Assembly (NCBI GenBank): GCA_017504945.1 | Contig: JAFVQJ010000002.1 | Coordinates: 1 to 64,000 of the forward strand | DNA: 64,000 nucleotides | Reading direction: 5' to 3' | Source of the DNA: Clostridia bacterium | GTDB taxonomy: Bacteria; Bacillota; Clostridia; Oscillospirales; RGIG5299 | In this document: positions 5,806 through 48,496 of the stretch, one piece after another | Layout of the letters: each line of letters begins with the position of its first letter | Position numbering within the stretch: position 1 is the first letter of the stretch | Position numbers and translations under genes: made by a program | Notes under the pieces: generated by a model | The model's database searches: none | What the model saw: the letters and a program-made list of their open reading frames with translations, nothing else | Told to the model about the DNA's origin: nothing

Positions 5806-5823
5806 ATTTTTGGAAAAATCAAT

Positions 5824-5860
5824 AAAAGCAGGGCAAAATCGCCCTGCTTTTATTTTTTTC
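5824..5860 (+). terminator. Terminator after the ECF S-component gene
   Basis: An 11-bp stem AAAAGCAGGGC / GCCCTGCTTTT is followed by TATTTTTTTC. Confidence 0.92.
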
Positions 5861-6157: not shown

Positions 6158-6185
6158 TTGACAAATCGCATAAAAGGTATATAAT
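6158..6185 (+). promoter_or_regulatory. Sigma-A promoter of the large transport operon
   Basis: TTGACA (6158-6163) and TATAAT (6180-6185) with a 16-bp spacer; both hexamers are consensus. The leader to the ATG at 6244 is about 50 nt. Confidence 0.85.
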
Positions 6186-6243
6186 TATAATACTGAAATT
6201 GTCGTTTCAGCGTCTATCATATTCCCTGAAAGGATTGAAGCAA

Positions 6244-9240
6244 ATGCAAACAAAGAGAAAGCTCTCAAGGCTTTTATCGGTTGTGTTGGCGGTATTTCTC
6301 GTATTACCGCTTGTTTTCGGTTGCTATGTAAACGCTGCCGAAAAGCTCTACGGGGCAGAAAACCCCTACACCGATGAGCTTATCAAAGAGCTTATGGACA
6401 TCCCCTTCTACTCGGTGTTGAAGAGGAGCTACGATAAGGCGGGCTACAGGGCTCCCTCCGATGCTCCCGAAAACACCATAGTCGTCACACCCGACACCAT
6501 TACCGGCGAGAACGGTGAAAAGGTAACTCTTTCAAACAGAGGCCCTGCCGACGACCAGAAAAACGCTTTTTACTGGACCTACGATAACAAGACCGTTACC
6601 TGGACCTTCGAGATCACCGAAGCCGGTCTTTATCAGTTTGCTCTTGATTACTATCTCGAGCCCGGTAAGGGTGCCGACCCCGTAAGAAAGCTCCTCATTG
6701 ACGGCGAGAAGCTCTACTACGAGGCAGATAACCACATCTTCTACCGCTACTTCGCCGATGAGAACGGCGACGATCGCGTTCTCAATACCGACGGCGATGA
6801 GATGCGTCCCCGCGCACTTGAGATAAACAAGTGGCGCAACGTTGATATAGTTGACTATTACGGCTTCTTCTCGATGCCCATAGCCATCTACTTCGGCGAG
6901 GGCACTCACACCGTCACCATGGAGTATTACTCGGGTGATATGGCAATCGGCGATCTTACCGTTTCTCCCATGGAAACGTTAAAGAGCTATGCCGATTACA
7001 AGGCTGCCCTTCAGGCTGACGGCCTCTACAAGCAGGCAACTACCATCGAGCCCATCACCTTTGAGGCTGAGTTCCACACCGAGAGAAACGGAAGCGCTAT
7101 CCGCCGCGAGGCAGACGGCGACCCCGCTTGCTCTCCTTATCAGTGGGATAAGAAGATACTCAACATAATCGGTGCAGGCACGTGGTATAAGGCAAACAAG
7201 GCTATCACCTGGTCCTTCAACGTCAAGGAGGCAGGCGTTTACAAGATAGCTCTCCGTCAGTTCCAGGCTTATAACGATAACATCTCTTCCTTCAGAAAGA
7301 TAGAGATAGACGGTGAGGTTCCCTTCGCTGAGTTTGCAGAGTACGAGTTTGAGTACAGCAGCAACAAGAGCTGGAAAAACTACACTCTCAGCATCGACGA
7401 CGAGGCAGTTTACTACTACTTCGACGAGGGCGAGCACACCATCACCATGACGGTAGTTATGGGCGATTATACCGAGCTTATCCAGTCTATCTACTACGAT
7501 ATGCAGCTCATGACCGACTTCATGAACGATATCCGTCAGATAACCGGTGCAAACCCCGACTATAACTACGACTACGGCTTCTACGACGGCGACGATAAGA
7601 GAGGCTTTAAGGCTAAATTCCAGATGATGAGCGACAGTATGGCGTGGAAATACGATTTCCTCGTTGAAAACTCCTCAACCGGAAAGATCCCCTCGATGGC
7701 TAACAGCTTTAAGTTCCTTAAGACCTCGTTTGACACCGCTATCAAGTACGAGTACCGCATTGCAAAGCTCTACGATACCGACTTCCTTAGCGCTCAGTCG
7801 AGCCTTTCGACCTACTACTCGCAGTTACAGTCACAGAATCTCGCGATAGACGACTTTACGATATATAACGACGGCTACAAGCTTCCCAAGAGAGAATCTA
7901 CCTTCTGGCAGAAGCTTTCCTCCTCAATTAAGAACTTCTTCCTCTCCTTTACCAAGGATTACGACAGCATTAAGGGCGTTCAGGGCGCAGCCCAGCCCGA
8001 GGAGATAGTTAAGGTATGGATCGCCCGCGGTATCGACTGGGCAGAGCTCTTTAAGGAGCTTGCCGATACCACCTTTACTCCCGAGTCGAAGATAGGCGTT
8101 CAGCTCTCCATTATGCCTGCCGGTCAGCTCACCGCAGGTGCTACCAACGCTCTTATGCTTGCAATAGCATCGGGCAAGAATATCCCCGACCTCTGCGTAT
8201 CCTCCGATATCGGTTCTCCCGCAGAGTTTGCGGTTCGTGAAGCGACCTACGACCTCTCCACCTTCGAGGACTTCGATATCGTTAGAGAGTGGTTCCTCGA
8301 CGTATGTATGAATCCTCTTACCTACAACGGCGGCGTTTACGGTCTTCCCGAAACGATGGACTTCAAGGTATTCTTCTACCGCACCGATATATTCGAGGAG
8401 CTCGGTCTTGAGGTTCCCGAAACGAGAGAAGATATATACAATTATATAATGCCTGCTCTTTACCGTCAGCAGATGACTGTGGGCATGGGCAGAGACGAGC
8501 TCACCTATATCCTTCAGCACGGCGGCAGCCTCTACACCGAGGACCTTCTTTATTCGGGTCTCGGCACTCCCGAGGCATACCTCGCAATGAAGGAACAGAC
8601 AGACCTCTTTACCAAATACGCTGTTCCCGTTCAGCAGGATTTCTACAACCGCTTCCGTACCGGTGAGACCCCCTGCGGTATCGGTACCTTCGCAACCTAC
8701 ATTCAGCTTAAGGCAGCGGCTCCCGAGCTTAACGGACGTTGGTCCATCGCTTTGCTTCCCGGACTTGAGAAGGTAAACACCGAAACCGGTGAGACCTACG
8801 TTGACCGCAGCCACAGCGGTTCTATCGCAACCGCATCCTTCGTTATGGCAACCACCGAAAAGCCGAACGAGTGCTGGGCACTTCTCAAATGGTGGATGAG
8901 CGAAGAAACTCAGACCGAATACGGCGTATCTATCGAGGGTATCGTCGGTGAAAGCGCAAGATGGAACTCGGCTAACCTCGAGTCCTTCGATAAGATGAAC
9001 TGGAACGTTGAGGACCTTCAGGTAATTCAGAAAACGAGAGAGTGGGTATATGAATATCCCTACATCCTCGGAAGCTACTTCACCACCCGTCATCTTACCA
9101 ACGCATACACCAAGGTCGTTATGAATCACGAAAACCTCAGAGACGCGCTTGAGTCTGCGGTAAGAGATATCAACCGCGAGCTTAAGATGAAGCACGAGGA
9201 ATACGGCTTCGGACATCTTTACGAAACGGAGGGAGTTTAA
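6244..9240 (+). CDS. Giant extracellular solute-binding protein with two N-terminal beta-sandwich domains
   Basis: 998 residues from the ATG at 6244 (AAAGGA ten bases upstream). After a signal peptide (~30 residues; a Cys in VFGC makes lipoprotein processing possible but the box is poor) come two related beta-sandwich modules at ~65-250 and ~265-435. Each carries the echo VTWTFEITEAGLYQF / ITWSFNVKEAGVYKI and GEGTHTVTMEYY / DEGEHTITMTVV, typical of carbohydrate-binding jelly rolls. A helical linker (~440-570) leads to a family-1 type solute-binding domain (~585-998), with the characteristic DLCVSSD, NGGVYGLPETMDF and SFVMATTEKPNECWALLKWW segments. Ordinary sugar-binding proteins have ~420 residues, so this one is more than doubled. 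It is the first gene of an operon with two permease pairs. Ligand unknown; probably a glycan. Confidence 0.85.
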   Translation: MQTKRKLSRLLSVVLAVFLVLPLVFGCYVNAAEKLYGAENPYTDELIKELMDIPFYSVLKRSYDKAGYRAPSDAPENTIVVTPDTITGENGEKVTLSNRGPADDQKNAFYWTYDNKTVTWTFEITEAGLYQFALDYYLEPGKGADPVRKLLIDGEKLYYEADNHIFYRYFADENGDDRVLNTDGDEMRPRALEINKWRNVDIVDYYGFFSMPIAIYFGEGTHTVTMEYYSGDMAIGDLTVSPMETLKSYADYKAALQADGLYKQATTIEPITFEAEFHTERNGSAIRREADGDPACSPYQWDKKILNIIGAGTWYKANKAITWSFNVKEAGVYKIALRQFQAYNDNISSFRKIEIDGEVPFAEFAEYEFEYSSNKSWKNYTLSIDDEAVYYYFDEGEHTITMTVVMGDYTELIQSIYYDMQLMTDFMNDIRQITGANPDYNYDYGFYDGDDKRGFKAKFQMMSDSMAWKYDFLVENSSTGKIPSMANSFKFLKTSFDTAIKYEYRIAKLYDTDFLSAQSSLSTYYSQLQSQNLAIDDFTIYNDGYKLPKRESTFWQKLSSSIKNFFLSFTKDYDSIKGVQGAAQPEEIVKVWIARGIDWAELFKELADTTFTPESKIGVQLSIMPAGQLTAGATNALMLAIASGKNIPDLCVSSDIGSPAEFAVREATYDLSTFEDFDIVREWFLDVCMNPLTYNGGVYGLPETMDFKVFFYRTDIFEELGLEVPETREDIYNYIMPALYRQQMTVGMGRDELTYILQHGGSLYTEDLLYSGLGTPEAYLAMKEQTDLFTKYAVPVQQDFYNRFRTGETPCGIGTFATYIQLKAAAPELNGRWSIALLPGLEKVNTETGETYVDRSHSGSIATASFVMATTEKPNECWALLKWWMSEETQTEYGVSIEGIVGESARWNSANLESFDKMNWNVEDLQVIQKTREWVYEYPYILGSYFTTRHLTNAYTKVVMNHENLRDALESAVRDINRELKMKHEEYGFGHLYETEGV

Positions 9241-10152
9241 TTGGCAGCATCACCTCTTGCAATGAAAAAACCGAAACACGGTCATCTTGAGAAGAACTGG
9301 GTAGGCCTTCTTTTCTTCCTTCCCTTCTTTATTCTTTTTGTAGTATTTACTATAGCTCCCGTTGTAGTTGCCATGGGTCTTTCCTTTACCAATTATAATA
9401 TGATACAGACCCCCGATTTCAGCGGCATTACCAACTACAAGCTTTTGTTCCTTGATGACGATATATTCATCCTCTCGCTCAAGAACACCTTCACCTTTGC
9501 GATAATCACCGGCCCCGTAGGCTATTTGATGTCCTTCGTTTCGGCATGGGTCATCAACAACCTCAAGTTTAAGACCGGATTCGCACTTGCATTCTATATA
9601 CCCTCAATTACGTCGGGCGTTGCGATGTCGGTTATTTGGCTCGTCGTTTTCTCTCCCGATAAATACGGTTACCTTAATAACTTCCTTATAAATATGGGAC
9701 TTATTTCGGAGCCTATCGCGTGGACGCAGGACCCCACTCAGCTTATGACGGTTATAGTTATTATCCAGATATGGATGAGTATGGGCGGCGGCTTCCTTGT
9801 ATTCCTTGCAGGTATTCAGAACCTCAACAGAGAGCTTCTTGAGTCCGGTAAGATAGACGGTATTAAGACCAAGTTCCAGGAGCTTCAGTACATTATCCTT
9901 CCCTCGATGAAGCCTCAGCTCCTTTACGGTGCTATCAACTCGGTCACCGGCGCACTCGGCGTTTACGATATCGCGGTTGCGGTTGCAGGCTTCCCCTCAC
10001 CGAACTACGCGGTACATACCATAGTTGCTCATCTTTACGACTACGCCTTCGTAAGATTCCAGATGGGCTACGCCTCGGCAATAGCAATCGTACTCTTCGC
10101 AATGACCTTTATTATAGGTAAGATCATTATGAGAGTACTCAGATCGGAATAA
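9241..10152 (+). CDS. ABC sugar transporter permease, MalF-type (pair 1)
   Basis: 303 residues, six membrane helices, binding-protein-dependent permease fold (PF00528). The cytoplasmic EAA-like loop reads ESGKIDGIKTKFQELQYI..LPSMKP, with the conserved Gly and LP. The start is TTG immediately after the stop of the binding-protein gene, with GGAGGG seven bases upstream; the next ATG (9262) would cut the N-terminus by seven residues. It would form a heterodimeric pore with the product of the gene at 10169. No ATPase lies in the operon, so a shared MsmX-like ATPase encoded elsewhere is presumed, as is known for many Bacillota sugar importers. Confidence 0.92.
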   Translation: MAASPLAMKKPKHGHLEKNWVGLLFFLPFFILFVVFTIAPVVVAMGLSFTNYNMIQTPDFSGITNYKLLFLDDDIFILSLKNTFTFAIITGPVGYLMSFVSAWVINNLKFKTGFALAFYIPSITSGVAMSVIWLVVFSPDKYGYLNNFLINMGLISEPIAWTQDPTQLMTVIVIIQIWMSMGGGFLVFLAGIQNLNRELLESGKIDGIKTKFQELQYIILPSMKPQLLYGAINSVTGALGVYDIAVAVAGFPSPNYAVHTIVAHLYDYAFVRFQMGYASAIAIVLFAMTFIIGKIIMRVLRSE

Positions 10153-10168
10153 GAAAGGAGGAGCAAAG

Positions 10169-11104
10169 TTGAATTACGAATCTACAAAGGTTATAGTAAA
10201 AGAACCTTTCAAAAAACGCGTTGTCGAAAAGATGAAGGATATACGCAGAGGATTCAGACATATCACTCCCGGCTGGGTAATGCTTTACGTATTTATGCTT
10301 TTGCTCGCCGCCTTCTGTCTTCTTCCCATCGTATATATGATATCGGCTTCCTTGAAGCCCTACGATGAGCTTTTCTACTTCCCTCCGAGATTCTTCGTTG
10401 AAAAGCCCACCTTCGACAACTTCACAAACCTTTTCTCCGCTCTTTCAAACTCCACCGTTCCCTTTACCCGTTATTTGTTTAACAGTATCGTAATCACGGT
10501 GGCGACCGTTACCGGCACCTGCCTCGTTTGCTCGATGGGCGCTTACGGTCTTTCAAAGTTTAAGATTCCGGGCGGAACCGCAATGTTCAACATAATCATT
10601 GCAACTCTTATGTTCTCCCCCTACGTAACGAGAATTCCTTCCTTCCTCGTAGTTTCAAACCTCGGACTACTGGACTCCTTCTTCGGAATAGTTATAGTTT
10701 CGGTCGGCGCATCGAGTAACTTCTTCCTTATGAAGCAGTTTATCGACCAGTATCCCTACGAGCTTATCGAGGCGGCGAGAATAGACGGCGCAGGCGAATT
10801 CAGAATTTTCTGGAAGATCGTTATGCCCGCTCAGAAGCCCGCACTTTCGGCACTTATAGTTTTCTCCTTCGTTGCATCGTGGAACGATTATTTCACTCCC
10901 CTTATATTCCTTTCAAAGCAGTCGATGAGAACTCTCCCCTTGGCACTTCAGAGCCTTGCGGGCGGTGCAGGTGCGGCAACTCTTGCAACTGCAGGTATCA
11001 CGGCGGCGGCGTCGCTTCTTATGACCCTCCCCGTTATAGTAATATTCGTTATAATGCAGCGTAAGGTTATTGAAACGATGACCTATGCGGGCATTAAGGG
11101 TTAA
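10169..11104 (+). CDS. ABC sugar transporter permease, MalG-type (pair 1)
   Basis: 311 residues, six membrane helices. The EAA loop is canonical (ELIEAARIDGAGEFRIFWKI..MPAQKP) and the C-terminus has the MalG-type ending (VIFVIMQRKVIETMTYAGIKG). The start is TTG preceded by AAAGGAGG. It is the partner of the MalF-type permease 16 bp upstream. In MalFGK systems the MalG-type subunit contacts the ATPase through the EAA loop, which is intact here. Confidence 0.93.
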   Translation: MNYESTKVIVKEPFKKRVVEKMKDIRRGFRHITPGWVMLYVFMLLLAAFCLLPIVYMISASLKPYDELFYFPPRFFVEKPTFDNFTNLFSALSNSTVPFTRYLFNSIVITVATVTGTCLVCSMGAYGLSKFKIPGGTAMFNIIIATLMFSPYVTRIPSFLVVSNLGLLDSFFGIVIVSVGASSNFFLMKQFIDQYPYELIEAARIDGAGEFRIFWKIVMPAQKPALSALIVFSFVASWNDYFTPLIFLSKQSMRTLPLALQSLAGGAGAATLATAGITAAASLLMTLPVIVIFVIMQRKVIETMTYAGIKG

Positions 11105-11117
11105 GGAGGTACTGAAA

Positions 11118-13481
11118 ATGAATAAAACAAAACGCATTGTCAGTGTTCTCCTCGCAGCGTTTATGCTCATAGCACTTCTTACCACGGGCGTCGGCGCTGC
11201 AAGCAACAGCTACATTCCCAACGGAACCGACGGCAAGACCTCGATTCCTACCACCTACAGCGTTGAAACCGTTATAATGGAGATCGAAGCCAAGCAGCAG
11301 TTTACCTATTATAAGGTAACCGGTAGCCACAAGGTAACCGACGACGAGGGCTTTACCTACGAGGTAAACGATTGGACCGAGATCACCGTTGACGTCGGCG
11401 ACATTATTGAAATGACCTCTCCCGAGGACCTTTTCATCGACAGTAAGGACAATATGTACGTTGCCGATACCAAAAACGGCAGAATCCTTAAGTTCAATCG
11501 CGAGATGGAGCTTCTCGGAATCTGGGGCGGCGCATTCTCCGATAACGAGAAGGTCGCAAAGAACGGTAAAAACGAAAAGAAGGTCATCGTTGAAAACGAA
11601 TTCGTAGGATTTTACGATCCCAAGGGCGTTTTCGTTGCGGATTTTGAAAACGATACCATCTACGTTGCCGATACCGGTAACAGAAGAATAGTTGCCTTGA
11701 ATCAGGATGGCTCCTTGGTAAGAATTTACGGAATACCTTCATCCGACCTTATCACCGACGACGATATCAAGAATAACTACTCTCCCGCTAAAATAGTTAA
11801 GACCAAGACCGGCTACCTCTACGTTGTTGTTAAGGAATCGGTTATGACTCTTGACGATAACAACGTTTTCCAGGGCTATTACGGTCAGTCGGCTGTTGCC
11901 TTCGACCTCGAGCTTGCCATCTACCGCGCGCTCGGCCTTCAGGAATACGTTGACAGAAAGGCAAAGACCTACGCAAGCTTCTATCTTAACATCAACCTCG
12001 GCAGCGACGGAATGATCTACGCCGTTACCCAGGATAACCTCGGCGGCGAGGTAAAGAAGCTCAACTCCGTAGGCGATAACATTTACAAAAACTACGGCGG
12101 TGTCGGTGGCGGAAGCATCTACGATTCACTCGTAGCAAGCTTCTTCTCAAACCAGACCAACCCCTTGGCACTCCTCTTTGCAAAGACCAACCTCCTCGGC
12201 GAGACCTTCTGGTTCGGCGAGCGTGTTAACGAGGACGGCCTTTACACCTTCCCCGTATTTGCAGATATCTGTGTTAATAACGACGGAATAGTAACCGTTT
12301 TGGAGAGAAACAACGGCAGACTTTATCAGTACGACGCAGAGGGCAACTGTCTCACCGTATTCGGCGGACTCGGCGCTTCGAAGGGTACCTTCGAATATCC
12401 CGAATCACTCGCTACCGACTCGGAGGGCAACATCTACGTTCTTGATAAAAACCTTAACTCCATTCAGATATTCAAGCCCACCGCATTTATAAAGCTCGTT
12501 CACAAGGCTGTTAAGCAGTATTCCGAGGGTCAGTACGACGCAGCGTCGGAGACCTGGAAAGAGGTTCTCAAAATGACCTCTACCTACGATATGGCTCACG
12601 TTGGCCTTGCAAAGACCGAGTTTAAGGACGGTAACTACGAGAACGCAATGAATCTTTACTATCTCGCACAGGACCGTGCAGGCTATTCGCAGGCATTTTC
12701 CGAGTGGCGTCGCGAGGCATTCAGAAACTACTTCCCCATCATTATAATAGCAATAGCCGTGATAGGCTTTGGCTGCTATTGGTTGGTAAGAGGTATTGCA
12801 AAGACTGCCGACCTCGCACTTTCCTTCTCCTCCGAGGAGGGCAGAAAGAAATGGTCGCCCAAAAAGAATCTTCAGGTGTTCGTGGGTACCATTCGCTCAC
12901 CCTTCAAGCTGTTTGACAGCGTAAAGGGTGCAAACGATAAGCTTATGTGGTGGCCTCCGATATTGGTATTCGCGCTTGTGGTCGTTGTAAGAATCGCTTA
13001 TATCTTCCTCGTTCACTATCCGCTTGCAGATATCGAGCCGAGAAATGCAAACATTCTTCTTGAAATAATCAAGATGCTCATAATGCCTATAACCTGGGCA
13101 GCTGCTTCCATAGCAGTTACCTCGATATGGGACGGCGAATCCAAATTCAAAGAGATATTCTACGCTACCGCAATGGCACAGGTGCCTTACATCTTTGTAA
13201 CCACCCTCCTCATTCCCTTGAGCCGCGTGCTTTGCCAGGAAGAGTTCGATATCTTCAGCTCACTCATTCAGATAGCAAGCTACTGGGTAATATTCCTTAT
13301 GCTCGGTTCGCTCAAGAGCCTTAACGACTATCCCGTAGGCAAGACCATTAAGGTTGCAATAGTTATCCTTATAATGATGGTCCTTATCTGGCTCGTTTGC
13401 ATACTCGGCATAACCCTTATCGGTCAGGTTATCAACTTCTTTGAGAGCATAGCTCTTGAAATACGAATGATGTTACTGTAA
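11118..13481 (+). CDS. NHL-repeat propeller / TPR / Yip1 membrane protein
   Basis: 787 residues from the ATG at 11118 (TAAGGAGGT upstream). Order: signal peptide (~27 residues, ends GVGA); beta-propeller of NHL-type repeats at ~85-470 (blade signatures such as DSKDNMYVADTKNGRILKF, FENDTIYVADTGNRRI, DSEGNIYVLDKNLNSIQIF); a TPR-like helical segment at ~475-540 (YSEGQYDAASETWKEVLK, FKDGNYENAMNLYYLA); one membrane helix; a ~60-residue cytosolic stretch; then a Yip1-type domain with about five helices (IRSPFKLFDSVK near its start). The propeller and TPR should face outside. In this operon it could be a scaffold for the importer. I know of no characterised protein with this order of domains. Confidence 0.82.
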   Translation: MNKTKRIVSVLLAAFMLIALLTTGVGAASNSYIPNGTDGKTSIPTTYSVETVIMEIEAKQQFTYYKVTGSHKVTDDEGFTYEVNDWTEITVDVGDIIEMTSPEDLFIDSKDNMYVADTKNGRILKFNREMELLGIWGGAFSDNEKVAKNGKNEKKVIVENEFVGFYDPKGVFVADFENDTIYVADTGNRRIVALNQDGSLVRIYGIPSSDLITDDDIKNNYSPAKIVKTKTGYLYVVVKESVMTLDDNNVFQGYYGQSAVAFDLELAIYRALGLQEYVDRKAKTYASFYLNINLGSDGMIYAVTQDNLGGEVKKLNSVGDNIYKNYGGVGGGSIYDSLVASFFSNQTNPLALLFAKTNLLGETFWFGERVNEDGLYTFPVFADICVNNDGIVTVLERNNGRLYQYDAEGNCLTVFGGLGASKGTFEYPESLATDSEGNIYVLDKNLNSIQIFKPTAFIKLVHKAVKQYSEGQYDAASETWKEVLKMTSTYDMAHVGLAKTEFKDGNYENAMNLYYLAQDRAGYSQAFSEWRREAFRNYFPIIIIAIAVIGFGCYWLVRGIAKTADLALSFSSEEGRKKWSPKKNLQVFVGTIRSPFKLFDSVKGANDKLMWWPPILVFALVVVVRIAYIFLVHYPLADIEPRNANILLEIIKMLIMPITWAAASIAVTSIWDGESKFKEIFYATAMAQVPYIFVTTLLIPLSRVLCQEEFDIFSSLIQIASYWVIFLMLGSLKSLNDYPVGKTIKVAIVILIMMVLIWLVCILGITLIGQVINFFESIALEIRMMLL

Positions 13482-13496
13482 AGGAGGCAATGAATA

Positions 13497-16400
13497 ATGA
13501 AATTTAAAAAGTTTATAGCTGCATTAGCGGCATTTGTAATGATCCTTCCCCTCTTCTCATTCATGGCCTCTGCCGACACCAAGGCTGACAAGGTCGTTTA
13601 CGACTTCCCCGCAGAGAGCCTTGCCGAGCTTGAGATCGACTTCGATAATCCCATAGCTACAAGCGGCAACCTCAAAATGTATTTCGTTCGCTTTGCAGGT
13701 CTTGCAAAGGAAACGCTCACCACGGCGGACGAGGTCATCGTTGACCGCCTTATCGGCATTAAAAATGCAGTTTTCGTTGAAGAGGTAGATCAGGTAAGAC
13801 CCTCCGGTCTTCGCGTAGGCGCTCTCGTTGTTGCCGAAAGCGGCATTTTGAGCGATCTCCAGAAGGCAAGCTTTAAGGAAGGCACTCTTATCACCGAGAT
13901 AGACGGCGCACCCATCACCTCCGTGGCAGACTACGTTGCGGCGATGGAAGCTAAAAAGCTTGGCGACAAGATAAAGATCTCCTACGTTCAGATAAAGGAT
14001 AACAACAACCTTACCGCCAACGAAACCCTTACCGACAAAGCACCCGATGCTACCAAAAACATCTTTATGCTCGAATATATGAAAGAGCATCTTAAAGATA
14101 CCGAGCTCGGTGTTGCTATCGGTGATCTCGTAATTCCCGAGGGTATGACCGAGGCGGAATTCAAAAAGCTTCTCAAGGTCGAGCCCGGCGCTATAATGAT
14201 AGGCGCGGATTACACCATTGAGATCAAAAAGGCAACCGGCTCGGCGATCATCGATCCCGCAACCGGAAAGGCACCCGAAACCAACAAGGTAAACGTCAAG
14301 GACGTTGCAATAAACACCAAGCAGGATTTCCTCGATCTCTACGAGCAGTTCCTTGAGGACTACGAGTATTATAAGAGTCTTCGCAAGGAAAAGAACACCG
14401 TAACCGTTAAGTTCACCTTCAAGTACATTTACTATCAAGAGCTTAACGCCAACGTTACCGCAGGCGTCCAGACCGACGCTCTCTTCGTTCTCGATTCGCA
14501 GAATGCAGAGGCACCTTATCTCTGGCGCTCGTCAGTTGACGAGACCGAGTATCAGCTCGATACCGATGCAGTCATCGACCGTTGGAAGGGCATGATGAGA
14601 TCTCTCGTTCTTCTCTATGCAGACCAGCTTCGCTCCGAATCGGCAACAGGTACCAAAACTACCTACGCCTCCGGCGACAGCGACAGATGCAAGACCTCCT
14701 ACACCGTTAAAAACGGCAAGCTTGTTTACAGCATGGACTTCACCGATGCGAAGATATCCTTCGATATCGAGCTCGGTCTTACAGACGGCACCTTCTACGC
14801 CAAGGTCCTTAACGACACCATCAGGGAATACGGCGAGGGCGAGACCGCCAAAAAGGTAATCGATATTGAGCTCTTACCCTTCTTCGGAGCGGTAAACAGC
14901 GTCAGAAACGGTTACTCCGTCGTTCCCGACGGCTCCGGCATGATGATAAACTTTGCAGAGAACGTTAACAGCATCTATGCAAAGGAATATGCATTCTCGG
15001 TAGGCGGCTCCGATATTCTCGATATGGATAAATATCTCAAGAATCAGAATCTTCTTGAAGATACCAACCTTCCCGTTTTCGGTATGGCAAACCTCGATAA
15101 GAAGGTAGCCTTCGTAGCATACTCGGCAACGGCTGACGCCGAGGCTTCGGTAATCACCTCTCCCGCAGGCTATGCGGTCGACCTTTACCGTTCTTCGCTC
15201 CGCTTCCGTTACCGCTACGTAACCGATATTCTCGCAACCAACATTACTGCGATAGGTAACTCCATTGACCGTACTCAGCAGAATTTGAACATCAAGAGAA
15301 TAGCGGGTAAGAAATACACTGTTGACAAAGCCTGCACGCAGGACCACGAGGTCCGCTACTCCTTCCTTTCGGGTGATGCGGCAAATTACAGCGGAATGGC
15401 TAACGCCTACCGCGACTACCTCGTAAAGACCGGCAACCTCGTTGACAATATAGCGGATAATGACGATCTTCCCATTATGATCGACTACTTTATGGCAACG
15501 TGGGAAAGTCAGATACTCTTTACCAAGATAGTTAAGATGACCTCATTTGCCGATGCAAAAGAGATCACCGAAGAGCTTTATAACAACGGCGTTACCAACA
15601 TCTACGCCAACTTCGTAGGCTACGTTAAGGGCGGCTACGGCAAAAACCCGAGGATATGGCCCATTGAAGGTGCAGTAGGCGGCGCAGGCGGCGCAAAAGC
15701 CTTTGCGGCTTTTGCAGATGCAAAGAATATTAAGACCTTCCTCTCGGTTGAGCCCATTATGGCCTCTCTTGAAAACGGCGGCTTCTCAACCAAGAACGAA
15801 ATCGTAAACTTCGGTAACTCGGTTGCGGTATCCGATAAGAAGGGCGATAAATACTTCCTCAACGCTCCCGCAGTTGTAAAGAAGCTCAACGCCTTTGCAA
15901 AGAATATTGATTCCATCGGCTTCAGCGGCGTTGCTCTCGAGACCATGGGCAACTTGCTCCTTCAGAACTACAAGGGCTCCACTCTCACCGAGACCAGAAC
16001 CGACACTATGAACCGTTGGGACGGCATACTCAAGACTATGGCGGAAAAGACCGATATGCTCGCAGTCGAGGGAAGCTCGCTTTATACCCTCAAATATTCC
16101 AACCATATAATTGAGATGCCCTCGAAATCATCGGAATATCATATAACCTATAAGTCTATCCCCTTCGTACAGCTCATAATCCACGGCTACGTTACCTATA
16201 CCGACGAGCCCATTAACCTCTTCTACGATCAGGATGTTCAGAGACTTAAGCTTGTTGAGTACGGCTGCATTCCTTATTATAAGATAACTAAGGAGCCCAC
16301 CGAAAACCTCAAGCTTTCCAACTACACCGACCTCTTCTCGTCGGAGTATGCACAGTGGAAGGATGACATCATTGCATTCTACGCTCTTTGCAACGAAAAG

Positions 16401-16562
16401 CTTGCAGACGTTTGGGATCAGCCGATGGTTTATCACGAAAATAACGGCACTACGGCGATAGTAAGATACGCAAACGGTAAAACGCTTGTTATCAACTACA
16501 CCGATGCCGCACTCGAGATCGAAGGCGTCACCGTTGGCGCATACGATTTCGAGGTTAAATGA
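13497..16562 (+). CDS. Secreted PDZ-like + DUF5696-type protein, putative glycoside hydrolase
   Basis: 1021 residues; signal peptide ends near residue 26 (SFMASA). A PDZ-like stretch at ~120-165 (FKEGTLITEIDGAPITSVAD, then GDKIKISYV) precedes a second small beta domain. A beta-sandwich from ~430 (the VVPDGSGMMI segment is typical of DUF5696) leads to a probable TIM barrel at ~650-960, with strand-end acidic residues in IMIDYFMATWES, TFLSVEPIMAS, SGVALETMGN and MLAVEGSS. A short beta domain closes the protein. DUF5696 is of unknown activity; fold and secretion suggest a glycan-active enzyme, which is inference. The RBS AAAGGAGG lies 16 bp after the Yip1 gene, so the two are cotranscribed. Confidence 0.78.
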   Translation: MKFKKFIAALAAFVMILPLFSFMASADTKADKVVYDFPAESLAELEIDFDNPIATSGNLKMYFVRFAGLAKETLTTADEVIVDRLIGIKNAVFVEEVDQVRPSGLRVGALVVAESGILSDLQKASFKEGTLITEIDGAPITSVADYVAAMEAKKLGDKIKISYVQIKDNNNLTANETLTDKAPDATKNIFMLEYMKEHLKDTELGVAIGDLVIPEGMTEAEFKKLLKVEPGAIMIGADYTIEIKKATGSAIIDPATGKAPETNKVNVKDVAINTKQDFLDLYEQFLEDYEYYKSLRKEKNTVTVKFTFKYIYYQELNANVTAGVQTDALFVLDSQNAEAPYLWRSSVDETEYQLDTDAVIDRWKGMMRSLVLLYADQLRSESATGTKTTYASGDSDRCKTSYTVKNGKLVYSMDFTDAKISFDIELGLTDGTFYAKVLNDTIREYGEGETAKKVIDIELLPFFGAVNSVRNGYSVVPDGSGMMINFAENVNSIYAKEYAFSVGGSDILDMDKYLKNQNLLEDTNLPVFGMANLDKKVAFVAYSATADAEASVITSPAGYAVDLYRSSLRFRYRYVTDILATNITAIGNSIDRTQQNLNIKRIAGKKYTVDKACTQDHEVRYSFLSGDAANYSGMANAYRDYLVKTGNLVDNIADNDDLPIMIDYFMATWESQILFTKIVKMTSFADAKEITEELYNNGVTNIYANFVGYVKGGYGKNPRIWPIEGAVGGAGGAKAFAAFADAKNIKTFLSVEPIMASLENGGFSTKNEIVNFGNSVAVSDKKGDKYFLNAPAVVKKLNAFAKNIDSIGFSGVALETMGNLLLQNYKGSTLTETRTDTMNRWDGILKTMAEKTDMLAVEGSSLYTLKYSNHIIEMPSKSSEYHITYKSIPFVQLIIHGYVTYTDEPINLFYDQDVQRLKLVEYGCIPYYKITKEPTENLKLSNYTDLFSSEYAQWKDDIIAFYALCNEKLADVWDQPMVYHENNGTTAIVRYANGKTLVINYTDAALEIEGVTVGAYDFEVK

Positions 16563-16579
16563 AAAGGGGTGAAGAAGAA

Positions 16580-17695
16580 TTGAATAACGAAGAGAATAAA
16601 AATCTTAACGAGGCGGAGAACATCGCTCCCGTTTCGGAAAAGGTAGAAAACAAAAAGGTTAAAGCTCCCAAGGCTCCCAAAGAACCCAAAGCTCCCAAAG
16701 CACCTAAGGCTCCCAAAGCCAAGAAAGAGCAAAAACCCTATAAAGACCCCTCTAAATTTACCGTATGGCTCAAGAGAAAAATAAATCTCGAAAGAAGAGC
16801 AGCGCTCGAAGGCTATTTCTTCACGTTGCCTCTCACTATCGGACTTCTCATCTTCTTTGCCTTCCCCCTTGGCCTTTCGCTTGTTTTGAGCTTATCTGAG
16901 CTTGAAAAAATGGTTGGCTTTGAAATGCACTGGGTAGGCTTAAAGAACTATACCGACGTATTGTTTAACGACGTAAGCTTTACCAAGGCGCTCAGTGAGG
17001 TATTCGCTGATACATTCATAAAAATACCTCTCATCATAGTTTTTTCGCTTCTTCTTGCAATAATAATAAGCAGAAACATAAAAGCAAAAGGCTTTTTCCG
17101 AGTCGTATTCTTCCTTCCCTTCATTTTGGGAACAGGCTACGTTCTCGAGCAGCTCTACTCACTCGGCGTTGTATCGCAGGCACTGTCACTCGACTCCTCG
17201 TCGTTGATACCGCCTTCGGTCATCGCCTACCTCGGCGTCGACTTCACCGCCATGGTAAACTCATTCCTTAAGATAATCGTTTCGGTTCTGTGGTCGTGCA
17301 GTGTTCAGATACTTATGTTCCTTTCGGGACTTCAGAGCATTTCACCCACCCTTTACGAGTCCGCCGGCGTTGACGGCGCAACCGAATGGGAAAAGTTCTG
17401 GAAGATAACCCTTCCCATGATAATGCCCATAATGGTCGTTAATATCATCTACTCGATATGCGACTCCTTCGTCAACGTTGAAAACGGAGTTCTCACTCTT
17501 ATTAAGAACCTCACCTACGGCTCAGGTCAATCGATGCCTCAGGCAGCGGCTATCTCTTGGATATACACACTCGTTATTATGATATTCGTAGGCATTGTCT
17601 TCCTCTTCCTTGGAAGAAGCTACGGAGCAGATACTACGAAAGGAGCGGATGAACGTGCAATCAGAAAAGCTAAAAAACGTCGCTACAACTGGTAA
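16580..17695 (+). CDS. ABC sugar transporter permease, MalF-type (pair 2), with Lys-Ala-Pro tail
   Basis: 371 residues from TTG at 16580 (AGGGGTG nine bases upstream); an ATG at 16559 overlapping the previous stop is the alternative. The first ~75 residues are cytosolic and unusual: an acidic start, then repeated KAPK / KEPK triplets ending in AKKEQKP. Six membrane helices follow, with the EAA loop ESAGVDGATEWEKFWKI..LPMIMP. It is a second, divergent MalF-type subunit paired with the gene at 17649. The basic low-complexity tail is absent from pair 1 and could bind phospholipid head groups, RNA or a partner. Confidence 0.88.
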   Translation: MNNEENKNLNEAENIAPVSEKVENKKVKAPKAPKEPKAPKAPKAPKAKKEQKPYKDPSKFTVWLKRKINLERRAALEGYFFTLPLTIGLLIFFAFPLGLSLVLSLSELEKMVGFEMHWVGLKNYTDVLFNDVSFTKALSEVFADTFIKIPLIIVFSLLLAIIISRNIKAKGFFRVVFFLPFILGTGYVLEQLYSLGVVSQALSLDSSSLIPPSVIAYLGVDFTAMVNSFLKIIVSVLWSCSVQILMFLSGLQSISPTLYESAGVDGATEWEKFWKITLPMIMPIMVVNIIYSICDSFVNVENGVLTLIKNLTYGSGQSMPQAAAISWIYTLVIMIFVGIVFLFLGRSYGADTTKGADERAIRKAKKRRYNW

Positions 17696-18686
17696 AAAGA
17701 AACTTTTTAACCGCGAACCCAAGCCGAAGAAGCCGCGTATGACGTGGGATGAATTTGTTGTAAACTTCAAACGCAAGGCAAAACAGCCTCGCTTCTGGGG
17801 ATCTGTTGCCCTTAATATAGGAATGTATATCCTTCTTATCGGCATTGCATTCATCTTCCTCTATCCCTTTATCTTTATGATAATAACCTCTCTCAAGAGT
17901 AACGCCGACCTTATCGACCCCACTATCGGCTGGATTCCGAGAAACCTTCGTTGGGAAAACTATTCGATGGCGTTCCAGATGATGAACTTTAAGGGCTATA
18001 TAGGTAACTCGTTGCTTATAACCGCAGTTTGCACCATCGGTCATCTTATTTCCTGCACCTTCGTTGGCTACGGTCTTGCGAGATTTAAGTTTAGAGGACG
18101 CGGAATTCTCTTCTTCCTCGTAATCTTGACCATTATCGTTCCCATTCAGGCAACGATAACCCCGAGCTACATCATGTTTGCTAACATCAAATGGCTCGAC
18201 ACCTTCTTACCCACCTTCGTTCCCTCTTTCCTCGGTCTCGGACTTAAGGGCGGTCTCTTCGTATTCCTTGCGAGAAACTTCCTCTTAAGCCTTCCCAAAG
18301 AGATGGAGGAGGCAGCAAGAATAGACGGTTGCGGCTTCCTCGGAATATTCTTCAGAATAGTTGTTCCGATAGTAAGACCCCTTCTTCTTGTTATCCTCGT
18401 TCTCTCGATTGTTTGGCATTGGAACGATTACTATGAGCCCTCGCTCTATTTCAAGCAGAATATGCAGCCTCTTTCGTCGGGCATCAAAGAGCTTATCACT
18501 CTTTCGAAGCTCACTCCCGAGGAAATGGAGCAAAGACTCGGCCGTCCCGTTACCGACGACGATATTATAAATACCGCAACGGTTATGGCGGGCAGCTTCA
18601 TTACTCTTACACCCCTTATCGTAATGTTTATGTTCTTACAGAAGCAGTTCGTTCAGTCTGTTGAAAGAACCGGTCTTGTAGAATAA
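17649..18686 (+). CDS. ABC sugar transporter permease, MalG-type (pair 2)
   Basis: 345 residues if the ATG at 17649 is used; a GTG at 17655 has better spacing from AAAGGAG. Either start overlaps the preceding permease gene by about 40-47 bp, implying coupled translation. A basic N-terminal region precedes six helices. The EAA loop is canonical (EMEEAARIDGCGFLGIFFRI..VPIVRP) and the C-terminus is MalG-like (FLQKQFVQSVERTGLVE). An insertion between the last helices (~residues 275-305, LSKLTPEEMEQRLGRPVTDDD) distinguishes it from the pair-1 subunit. Confidence 0.92.
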   Translation: MNVQSEKLKNVATTGKKKLFNREPKPKKPRMTWDEFVVNFKRKAKQPRFWGSVALNIGMYILLIGIAFIFLYPFIFMIITSLKSNADLIDPTIGWIPRNLRWENYSMAFQMMNFKGYIGNSLLITAVCTIGHLISCTFVGYGLARFKFRGRGILFFLVILTIIVPIQATITPSYIMFANIKWLDTFLPTFVPSFLGLGLKGGLFVFLARNFLLSLPKEMEEAARIDGCGFLGIFFRIVVPIVRPLLLVILVLSIVWHWNDYYEPSLYFKQNMQPLSSGIKELITLSKLTPEEMEQRLGRPVTDDDIINTATVMAGSFITLTPLIVMFMFLQKQFVQSVERTGLVE

Positions 18687-18693
18687 TAACCGA

Positions 18694-18724
18694 TCTCCGC
18701 CGACGTGTTACGCGTCGGCGGAGA
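18694..18724 (+). other. Strong intergenic hairpin without T-run before the amidohydrolase gene
   Basis: A 12-bp perfect stem TCTCCGCCGACG / CGTCGGCGGAGA with a 7-nt loop lies 8 bp after the permease stop. It is followed by AATCAAAT, so it is not a typical intrinsic terminator. It may protect the 3' end of the transport mRNA or set a ratio with the downstream gene. Confidence 0.7.
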
Positions 18725-18775
18725 AATCAAATACGATAGCAAAATAAGACAATAACAGAAGGAATGGTGTAAAAA

Positions 18776-19549
18776 ATGATAATAGACGCACACGCACACA
18801 TTGGAGAGATAACGGACTTCCTTTGCTTCGACCCCTCGGTTGAAAATCTCCTCAAGAGAATGGAAGAGCTTAACATCGACGTAGTTATCAACGCCGACTA
18901 TTACGGCCTTGAGGTGCCCGATTACGATCGCGGCATTGAAAAAAGCAAATATCTCTACAAGATATCAAATAAGAAAATAGTAAACTTCTTTAACTATAAC
19001 CCCAAGCATATGGAAAAATGCCTTGAGGTAATTGAAAAGTATCACGATGACCCTGCATTCGTGGGAATAAAGATTCATCCCTCAATGCACCACATCTTTG
19101 CAGACGACGAGAGCTACCGTCCCGTTTGGGAGATCGCAAAGAAATACGATCTTCCCATTATGTCGCACACATGGGCTCTCTCCGACTATAATCCCCGTCA
19201 GAAATTCGCAGTTCCCGGTCTCTTTGAGAAATATATCAAGGAGTATCCCGATGTCGATTTCATATTCGGTCATTCGGGCGGAAGAACCGAGGGCGTAAGA
19301 GAGGCGGCGGCTTTGGCTGCAAAATATGCAAACGCATACCTCGACATTGCCGGCGACCCGTTTGAGTACGGCGTCGTTGAGTACCTCGTAAACAACGGCG
19401 GTGAGGATAAGGTCATCTACGGAACCGACGTTTTCTGGTTCGACTTTTCCGCACAGCTCGGTATGGTGCTCGGCGCCAATATTTCCGACGAGGCAAAGGA
19501 AAAGATCTTTTCCAAAAACGCTCTTAAGGTATTTAAGAGATTGGCTTAA
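18776..19549 (+). CDS. Amidohydrolase (Amidohydro_2 family)
   Basis: 257 residues, cytosolic metal-dependent TIM-barrel hydrolase or decarboxylase-like enzyme of the amidohydrolase superfamily (PF04909 type). Metal ligands visible: DAHAHIG (His6, His8) at the first strand, KIHPSMH, MSHTW, FIFGHSGG and the terminal Asp in VIYGTDVFW. The substrate cannot be told. It follows the transport operon after a hairpin, with no new promoter that I can see, so it may process the imported compound. RBS GAAGGAATGG lies upstream of the ATG. Confidence 0.85.
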   Translation: MIIDAHAHIGEITDFLCFDPSVENLLKRMEELNIDVVINADYYGLEVPDYDRGIEKSKYLYKISNKKIVNFFNYNPKHMEKCLEVIEKYHDDPAFVGIKIHPSMHHIFADDESYRPVWEIAKKYDLPIMSHTWALSDYNPRQKFAVPGLFEKYIKEYPDVDFIFGHSGGRTEGVREAAALAAKYANAYLDIAGDPFEYGVVEYLVNNGGEDKVIYGTDVFWFDFSAQLGMVLGANISDEAKEKIFSKNALKVFKRLA

Positions 19550-19557
19550 AAAATGTA

Positions 19558-19587
19558 AACGGGCAGGTAAAACTGCCCGTTTTTTAT
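19558..19587 (+). terminator. Terminator after the amidohydrolase gene
   Basis: The stem AACGGGCAG / CTGCCCGTT with a 6-nt loop is followed by TTTTTATATTTG, ending the large operon. Confidence 0.92.
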
Positions 19588-19592
19588 ATTTG

Positions 19593-19621
19593 TTGACATA
19601 ATTTAAAAATTGTGCTATACT
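19593..19621 (+). promoter_or_regulatory. glmS promoter
   Basis: TTGACA (19593-19598) and TATACT (19616-19621) with a 17-bp spacer and an upstream TGTG extension. The predicted RNA start is close to 19629, just before the ribozyme leader. Confidence 0.88.
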
Positions 19622-19630
19622 ATATAACAA

Positions 19631-19834
19631 GTGAATGCAAAATTTAATTTATCAAGCGCCGGCTCCGCTCTTGCGGAGGACGAGGACGGGACTTATCGAA
19701 ATTTTCGGCGGATGGTCCTGCGGTTTGAGGCAATCGTCAGACAGAGGCAAAAACTTTCGCGAGAAAGCAACAGATCCTGCTGTCGCGCCTTTTGCATTCA
19801 CCTTAGCTTTGGGGCAAAGCCCCGCGGCAAGTGA
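19631..19834 (+). ncRNA. glmS ribozyme (glucosamine-6-phosphate-activated self-cleaving riboswitch)
   Basis: The conserved catalytic core is unmistakable: GCGCC at 19656-19660, the short P2-type hairpin CTCCGC..GCGGAG, then GACGAGGACGGG and TATCGAAATTTTCGGCGGATGG at 19679-19715. By homology, cleavage falls between A19655 and G19656. The 3' support helices include CTTTCGCGAGAAAG and, further on, a GGGGC/GCCCC hairpin at ~19811-19824. In Bacillota, glucosamine-6-phosphate acts as cofactor for cleavage and the cut mRNA is degraded by RNase J, giving feedback on glmS; an RNase J gene lies in this window. The leader 19631-19642 is exactly complementary to 19790-19801. Confidence 0.95.
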
Positions 19835-46891: not shown

Positions 46892-48496
46892 TTGGAAACA
46901 CGGCATTTTCTTTTGCAAAACGCAACGAAAACCGAATATGAAAATGCAATAAATGAGATCGCGCTTATTTTAAAAAGCGGCGGTCTTGTTGCCGTGCCAA
47001 CCGAAACTGTCTACGGACTTGCCGCCTCGGCACTTTGCGAGGACGCTGTAAAAAATATATTCACGGTAAAGGGCAGACCGCAGGATAACCCCCTTATCGT
47101 CCACGTGGCATCTCCCTGCGACATGGAAAAATACGCCGCCTCGGTGCCGCCTCTTGCAAAAAAGGCAATAGAGGCGTTTATGCCCGGTCCCTTTACGGCA
47201 ATATTGCCCAAAAAGAGCGTTATTCCCTCTGTTACCACGGCGGGAATGGACTCGGTGGCGATACGTTGCCCCTCTCACAAGATAATGCACGATATAATAG
47301 ACCGATTGGGCGAGCCTATTGCGGCGCCCTCGGCAAACCTCTCGGGAAAGCCCTCCCCCACCGATTTTTCCCATTGCGTAAACGACCTTGAGGGAAGAGT
47401 CGAGGGAATCGTTGACGGAGGTGCCTCCGAGGTGGGCGTCGAATCTACGGTAGTCTCCTTCCTCACCGAAAAGGCGGTAATATGCCGCCCCGGCGCAGTT
47501 ACCTTTGAAATGCTGTGCGACGTATTGGGAAAGGATAACGTAACCGACGTTTCCGACGAAAAGACAGATAAGCCCATCTCCCCCGGCATGAAATACCGCC
47601 ACTATTCTCCCTCGGTGCCGCTTTACACCGTGTCGGGCGAAGGCGCGGCGGACTATATAAAGCAAAGAGCGCAAAACGAAAAGGGTATTGGCTTTATCGG
47701 CTTTAGCGAAAGCAAGAGCGAGGGCGCTCGATTTTTCGATTTCGGCTCGGTGAAAAAGCCGAGAGAGCAGCTTGCAAGGCTTTTTGCAATTCTTCGCGAG
47801 GCAGATAACGAAAAGGAAAGCCTTTCGTTGCTTCTTTGCGAGCGTCCCGATAAAAAGGGCGAGGGAAGTGCGGCGCTGAACCGTCTTTCAAGAGCGGCTT
47901 CTCACAAAAATATTGAAATTCCCGTAAAAATGCCAAAGATTATTGCAATAACGGGCAAAAGCGGCTCGGGTAAAAGCTCGGTAGGCTCATTGGCGGCCAA
48001 AGAGCTTGATTTTGGTTATATCGACTGCGACAGAGTGGCAAACGAGGTCATCTGGAGCTTTGCACCCCTTACCGAGAGAATAAAAGAGGAATTTGAGGTA
48101 AACGGCAGAAGCGAGCTTTCGAAAAAGGTGTTTGCAAATAAGGATCTGCTCTTGCGGCTCAATTTCCTTTCTCTTCCCGTTGTTATCTCGGAGATAGACA
48201 GGCTGATATTCGAGCTTGTCAAAAGCGGCAAAAGAGGCGTTATAGTTGACGGCGCAACCGTCATCGAAAGCGGATTTTCGCGCCGCGCCGATAAGACCGT
48301 TTTCATAAAAGCGGATAAGGATACCGCCATTTCACGTATAATGAAGCGCGACGGCATTGAAAAAGATGCGGCGCTTGCCCGAATAAACGCCCAAAAGCTC
48401 GATGGCTTTTACGGCGAGGCGTCGGACGTTACAGTTGAAAATAACGGCGCTGTTTCCGATGCGGTTGCCGCTCTTATCGCGGAGATAGGGCTATGA
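46892..48496 (+). CDS. Sua5/YwlC threonylcarbamoyl-AMP synthase fused to dephospho-CoA kinase
   Basis: 534 residues starting with TTG at 46892 (GAAGGAAGAGG upstream). Residues ~10-210 form the YrdC-type domain (KSGGLVAVPTETVYGLAA, KGRPQDNPLIVHV, SANLSGKPSPT) and ~235-325 the Sua5 C-terminal domain after the linker SPGMKYRHYSP. Residues ~348-534 are a complete CoaE: P-loop ITGKSGSGKSSV, CDRVANEV, and the lid RIMKRDG. So one protein should make threonylcarbamoyl-AMP for tRNA t6A and phosphorylate dephospho-CoA in the last step of CoA synthesis. No stop or frameshift separates them, and the downstream gene overlaps the end. I know these as separate genes. Confidence 0.93.
   Translation: METRHFLLQNATKTEYENAINEIALILKSGGLVAVPTETVYGLAASALCEDAVKNIFTVKGRPQDNPLIVHVASPCDMEKYAASVPPLAKKAIEAFMPGPFTAILPKKSVIPSVTTAGMDSVAIRCPSHKIMHDIIDRLGEPIAAPSANLSGKPSPTDFSHCVNDLEGRVEGIVDGGASEVGVESTVVSFLTEKAVICRPGAVTFEMLCDVLGKDNVTDVSDEKTDKPISPGMKYRHYSPSVPLYTVSGEGAADYIKQRAQNEKGIGFIGFSESKSEGARFFDFGSVKKPREQLARLFAILREADNEKESLSLLLCERPDKKGEGSAALNRLSRAASHKNIEIPVKMPKIIAITGKSGSGKSSVGSLAAKELDFGYIDCDRVANEVIWSFAPLTERIKEEFEVNGRSELSKKVFANKDLLLRLNFLSLPVVISEIDRLIFELVKSGKRGVIVDGATVIESGFSRRADKTVFIKADKDTAISRIMKRDGIEKDAALARINAQKLDGFYGEASDVTVENNGAVSDAVAALIAEIGL

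Follow-up and report, generated by a model that had tools for sequence, protein, structure and literature searches.

The window analysed here, positions 1 to 64,000 of the forward strand of contig JAFVQJ010000002.1 (assembly GCA_017504945.1, a Clostridia bacterium), carries a single plus-strand transcription unit (6158-19582), in which a promoter and a terminator enclose eight open reading frames (ORFs) encoding, in order, a giant solute-binding protein (SBP1), permeases A1 and B1, an NHL-TPR-Yip1 membrane protein, a secreted DUF5696 protein, permeases A2 and B2, and an amidohydrolase. A first-pass annotation had placed these genes in this order behind one promoter, which was borne out, with all eight ORFs on the plus strand and their Pfam families in agreement. 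The seven genes preceding the amidohydrolase gene are a real conserved system, hereafter the cassette. The promoter (TTGACA-16-TATAAT, 6158-6185, plus strand) matches the consensus at 12 of 12 positions, with a terminator upstream of it (5821-5854) and the first gene downstream, and an intrinsic terminator with a 10-bp stem and a U-tract (19557-19582, plus strand) closes the unit. Just 3′ of the −10 box lies a palindrome, CTGAAA-N6-TTTCAG (6193-6210). The same promoter in the same place, together with the palindrome (CTGAAA-N6/7-TTTCAG), is kept in the sister species G024 despite a different upstream gene. The palindrome, whose only match genome-wide in G024 is this one and which occurs at one further site in the window genome (G000:C28:3955-3974), is nearly unique in both genomes and is a candidate operator.

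Using the DUF5696 Pfam family as bait, we found matches in 74 of 147 genomes of the window's order, 72 of them strong, placing the cassette in half of the sampled genomes. Forty loci were fetched from ~25 families of the order, and the arrangement SBP1-A1-B1-NHL-TPR-Yip1 (as one or two genes)-DUF5696-A2-B2 was present in all 36 that were not cut by a contig end. NHL-Yip1 occurred in 70 genomes, all among the 72 with DUF5696, and in 0 of the 75 others (p 3e-40 without phylogenetic correction, with ~25 families involved). With NHL-TPR-Yip1 as bait in named genomes (one genome per species), at least 570 relatives were obtained and the best 80 kept, with carriers among these 80 in Paenibacillus, Bacillus, Halanaerobiales, Lachnospiraceae, Oscillospiraceae, Ruminococcus and others. 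The same order recurred in ~60 loci of other Bacillota, and DUF5696 accompanied NHL-TPR-Yip1 wherever the contig extended; the counts are approximate, as the two baits retrieved some loci in common (L076 = L163, L056 = L100). Seven loci were permuted (e.g. L084, L085, L169 and L149), Halanaerobiales among them. The non-permease parts are only 20-40% identical between loci. Across the phylum DUF5696 is patchier, matching in 46 of 398 sampled genomes, 39 of them above the family cut-off. The first-pass annotation had proposed one system kept together and had named scattering of the genes in relatives as an observation that would speak against it. The genes were not scattered, and the conserved order and the co-inheritance of DUF5696 with NHL-Yip1 strongly support one system, leading us to reject chance co-location.

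The first gene encodes SBP1 (6244-9240; SBP_bac_1, E 2e-13 in a whole-genome scan), which comprises an N-terminal signal/anchor helix, two β-sandwich domains (~75-245 and ~270-405, the second CBM35-like), a helical stalk (409-530) and a CUT1-type binding domain, and its AlphaFold model (mean predicted local distance difference test score, pLDDT, 84) contains both β-sandwiches, a four-helix stalk and the CUT1 binding domain. Given that a lipobox-like motif lies near the start of only 12 of 102 SBP1 sequences, the start codons of which are uncurated, many SBP1 proteins may be anchored by the N-terminal helix. SBP1 matched the profiles of Lin1841 (E 5e-32), part of 5x7g and many sugar-binding proteins, and Foldseek returned oligosaccharide-binding proteins as its nearest solved neighbours. 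The binding domain has, among its nearest relatives of known structure, the β-1,2-glucooligosaccharide-binding protein Lin1841 (5ysb) and a cycloisomaltooligosaccharide-binding protein (9xf5), both of which differ in being chains of ~400 residues that lack the N-terminal domains of SBP1. Their ligands are not transferable to SBP1, because identity is only ~18-20%, and naming a substrate through SBP1 was dropped, as these closest relatives bind different ligands.

The permeases form two pairs, A1 (9241-10152; BPD_transp_1 E 2e-10, EAA loop ESGKIDG...P) with B1 (10169-11104; E 3e-15, EAARIDGAG...P) in importer 1, and A2 (16580-17695; E 1e-6, ESAGVDGA...P) with B2 (17649-18686; E 1e-14, EEAARIDGCG...P) in importer 2. 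The BPD_transp_1 domain and the EAA coupling loop are present in all four, and both pairs should therefore couple to an ATPase. Of the junctions described in the first-pass annotation, the overlap between A2 and B2, which measures 47 bp (ATG 17649, stop 17695), is conserved, but the ATGA at 16559, although real in the DNA and the point where the ORF opens, is probably not the start of A2, because the start of the sister gene is a TTG that lies 17 nt past the stop, equivalent to the TTG at 16580 in the window. These permeases are the only sugar-type ones among seven BPD_transp_1 matches in the window assembly, which is 86% complete. The operon contains no ATPase gene. In Firmicutes, sharing of an MsmX-type ATPase among CUT1 importers is established (PMC7658222, PMC8579813), and OB_MalK ATPase matches turned up in the sister species, in 69 of the 72 carriers and in 56 of 75 non-carriers. 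We favour an oligosaccharide importer with a shared ATPase, and the uptake role proposed in the first-pass annotation is well supported by the four EAA-loop CUT1 permeases, the sugar-type SBP and the MalK/MsmX-type ATPases of the carriers; that the imported ligand is a glycan is likewise well supported, from what is known of these families.

Between the two permease pairs lie the genes for the NHL-TPR-Yip1 and DUF5696 proteins. NHL-TPR-Yip1 (11118-13481; Pfam NHL 9e-16, Yip1 1e-7 and a weak TPR match) starts at ATG 11118, preceded by the Shine-Dalgarno sequence AAGGAGG, rather than at 11085, and its Yip1 match exceeds the gathering score (32.3 versus 28.6 bits). The protein is laid out as a signal peptide, an extracytoplasmic NHL propeller, TPR, one transmembrane helix (535-553) and a multi-span Yip1 domain (614-765), and many relatives encode it as two adjacent genes instead, NHL-TPR (~500 residues) and Yip1 (~210 residues). 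The DUF5696 protein (13497-16562; PF18952 E 5e-134) has a predicted GH129/GH101/GH36-like fold of β-domain and TIM barrel with a PDZ-like segment, in a model with a mean pLDDT of 66 that is confident from about residue 610. Foldseek with this model matched 5opq (E 5e-28, probability 1.00) and 5wzn (E 1e-24). The N-terminal β-domain and TIM barrel are shared, by fold and profile match, with GH129 (NagBb, ZgGH129) and GH101 glycosidases, from which DUF5696 differs in its ~13% identity and in being tied to a transport cassette. A search for GH129 (PF11308) in 249 genomes of the phylum gave no match, controls included, and is uninformative for the annotation of DUF5696. The PDZ element of the first-pass annotation is a marginal match seen in the window's genus only (PDZ_2, E 5e-4, 20.8 bits versus a threshold of 27): it is similarly weak in the same-genus locus L032 and absent from four other DUF5696 proteins, and was rejected as a defining element.

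The last gene of the unit encodes an accessory amidohydrolase (18776-19549; Amidohydro_2, E 2e-28), parted from the other genes by an 89-bp gap that contains a very stable hairpin with a 13-bp stem and no U-tract (18694-18724, plus strand; −27.5 kcal/mol, z −5.4), a possible processing or attenuation point. The first-pass annotation had counted this enzyme as part of the system. The gene is present in L032 and absent from nearly all other cassettes, making it a genus-level add-on outside the conserved set, and we rejected it as a member.

In most loci outside the window's order, the cassette is accompanied by a second, ordinary SBP_bac_1-like protein (SBP2), encoded after B2, before SBP1 in Paenibacillus, or before NHL in permuted loci. 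In its fuller, canonical form the cassette therefore comprises NHL-Yip1, DUF5696 and a pair of complete CUT1 importers. The arrangement described in the first-pass annotation, one binding protein for two pores, is the reduced state: only four of the 40 loci from the window's order have SBP2, the window locus not among them, and many named loci without SBP2 have sequences so close to those of that order that they may be members of it. Besides SBP1, the window genome encodes a single SBP_bac_1 protein, an orphan at G000:C18 (L152:6515-8179, 554 residues) that has no permease genes beside it in the fetched stretch; G024 encodes several SBP_bac_1 proteins of similar size. This orphan has no similarity to SBP2 sequences and is unsupported as the missing SBP2. 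Some near-complete small genomes of the order (G072, G076) likewise encode only one SBP_bac_1 protein besides SBP1.

A comparison of pairwise-distance matrices for the eight parts across 61 loci gave correlations of 0.71-0.95, with the tightest block formed by NHL, Yip1, DUF5696, A2 and B2 (0.86-0.95), a second by SBP1-A1-B1 (0.80-0.85), and values of 0.71-0.85 between the blocks. The breakpoints of the permuted loci fall mostly between these two blocks, the exception being L149, in which A2-B2 stand ahead of SBP1. Together, the correlations and breakpoints indicate that permease pair 2 most likely belongs with DUF5696 and NHL-Yip1. In relatives, the operon neighbours include genes for GH26, GH30, GH43, GH127, GH38, GH4, GH95, GH125, GH130 and CBM65, as well as regulators. 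Ten strong SBP1 matches were found in the single 7.5 Mb genome of Bacillus sp. FJAT-28004 (L097, G547), which suggests expansion of the cassette. The variety of glycan-enzyme neighbours and the ten SBP1 copies in one Bacillus point to a device for glycan import in general that has diversified towards many substrates.

Taking these observations together, we consider it on balance probable that the cassette specifies a single conserved machine, composed of two CUT1-type ATP-binding cassette (ABC) importers, that takes up oligosaccharides at the cell surface. In this machine, SBP1, tethered to the membrane and equipped with its stalk and two carbohydrate-binding-like domains, would catch a glycan chain and hand the ligand to pore A1/B1, while the DUF5696 protein would bind the same glycan and, in some lineages, probably cleave it. 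Pore A2/B2 would import a related or shorter product, and most distant relatives give it an SBP2 of its own. Where the locus lacks SBP2, as in the window's lineage, pore 2 would have to rely on SBP1 as well, draw on a protein from another locus or function with no binding protein. The NHL-TPR-Yip1 protein would hold its propeller and TPR outside the membrane on the Yip1 anchor and, judging from co-evolution and breakpoints, most likely links DUF5696 to pore 2, and both pores would be powered by a MalK/MsmX-type ATPase encoded elsewhere. That Yip1 and the propeller organise the two pores, as the first-pass annotation proposed, is conjecture. Three observations weigh against this reading: no MalK/MsmX-type ATPase (OB_MalK) was found in the window assembly, which is 86% complete; at least eight loci contain NHL-Yip1-DUF5696-A2-B2 without SBP1-A1-B1 in the fetched stretch, so that the halves are separable; and no conserved catalytic carboxylate pair was found in the 129 DUF5696 sequences, with columns assigned by sequence and strand order.

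In a rival explanation, the two importers are ordinary CUT1 systems that serve different parts of the same polysaccharide and are co-transcribed for regulatory convenience, NHL-Yip1 and DUF5696 are accessory to importer 2 only, and no physical dual-pore machine exists. Two complete importers in the canonical cassettes, the breakpoints and co-evolution that part SBP1-A1-B1 from the second block, and the loci in which that block stands alone are all as this explanation would have them; however, the halves remain adjacent and in one order in most genomes despite large divergence, importer 2 of the window's lineage has lost its SBP yet retains both permeases, and SBP1 was found in all ten genomes searched, including elsewhere in the genome in all four whose fetched second block stands alone. 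We regard this explanation as credible but rather unlikely. Improbable, in our estimate, is a role of the second block in surface sensing or gating, with the ABC-like pair reporting extracellular glycan instead of forming a second importer. Such a role would fit the lack of a binding protein for pair 2, which the window shares with most loci of its order, the replaced pocket residues of the window DUF5696 protein (SD 823-824 to QN and N861 to S) and the propeller and TPR, which are typical interaction modules, whereas the intact EAA coupling loops of A2 and B2 and the dedicated SBP2 of most distant relatives point to transport, and no response element is encoded at the window locus.

A further proposal concerns DUF5696 alone and is compatible with the import machine favoured here: the protein would be an active glycosidase of the GH129/GH101 clan, of exo or endo type, and would free at the surface the sugar that is then imported. 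We consider this possible but less likely than not. The whole fold matches GH129 and GH101, the sequence profile matches 5opq, a GH129 3,6-anhydro-D-galactosidase, with E 1e-10, and conservation across the 129 family sequences reaches 87% for D824, 99% for R834 and 87% for N861. By contrast, the presumed nucleophile column, assigned by sequence and strand order, holds Asp in only 29% of these sequences, no second acid is conserved in the barrel pocket, and both D824 and N861 are lost in the window copy. Trimming of the polymer by this protein, as proposed in the first-pass annotation, is thus unproven and not supported as stated: the protein has a glycosidase fold, but no conserved carboxylate pair was found and the window copy has also lost conserved pocket residues.

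Among known systems, the cassette resembles CUT1 (MalEFG-type) importers with a shared MsmX/MsmK ATPase (PMC7658222, PMC8579813) in its SBP_bac_1 protein, two EAA-loop BPD_transp_1 permeases, lack of an operon ATPase and glycan-enzyme neighbourhoods. Unlike plain CUT1 systems, it has two permease pairs in a fixed set, a giant SBP with two extra β-sandwiches, and obligate NHL-TPR-Yip1 and DUF5696 proteins. The SusCD systems of polysaccharide utilization loci serve glycan uptake in Bacteroidota. As an analogy only, these also form a fixed multi-gene set that captures glycans at the surface, may cleave them and imports them, from which the cassette differs in using ABC importers, with no outer membrane, TonB porin or SusD. 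A more ambitious proposal, which we put forward tentatively and think unlikely in full, is a hitherto unrecognised class of machine for capturing glycans in Gram-positive bacteria. Its two ABC importer pores would share one ATPase and be physically organised by NHL-TPR-Yip1 with a GH129-like DUF5696 receptor or enzyme, a single giant SBP would feed both pores in the window's lineage, and the whole would be a functional SusCD analogue in Bacillota. DUF5696 is not mentioned in 5.39 million papers of the open-access literature, a scope that omits most subscription journals, and the open literature contained nothing relevant on Yip1 with ABC transporters or on Yip1 with binding proteins and glycoside hydrolases. 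The composition of the cassette thus appears undescribed in the open literature, although CUT1 import as a kind is already known.

Elsewhere in the window, directly past the cassette terminator, a separate unit opens with a promoter at 19593, followed by a glmS ribozyme (19644-19793; RF00234, 75 bits) ahead of glmS, the sole Rfam match in the window. Positions 46892-48496 encode an unusual-looking fusion of threonylcarbamoyl-AMP synthase (Sua5/YrdC and Sua5_C) with dephospho-CoA kinase (CoaE), and positions 50734-52737 encode a large protein that combines ricin-B lectin with Big_2 domains and may be a further surface protein that binds glycans.

Because cultured carriers exist in Paenibacillus and Bacillus, the system is directly testable. 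If true, the import machine favoured here would assign roles to DUF5696 and a bacterial Yip1 family and would show how ABC importers can pair, and, if it works as proposed, it would constitute a major unrecognised route of glycan import in gut and soil Firmicutes.

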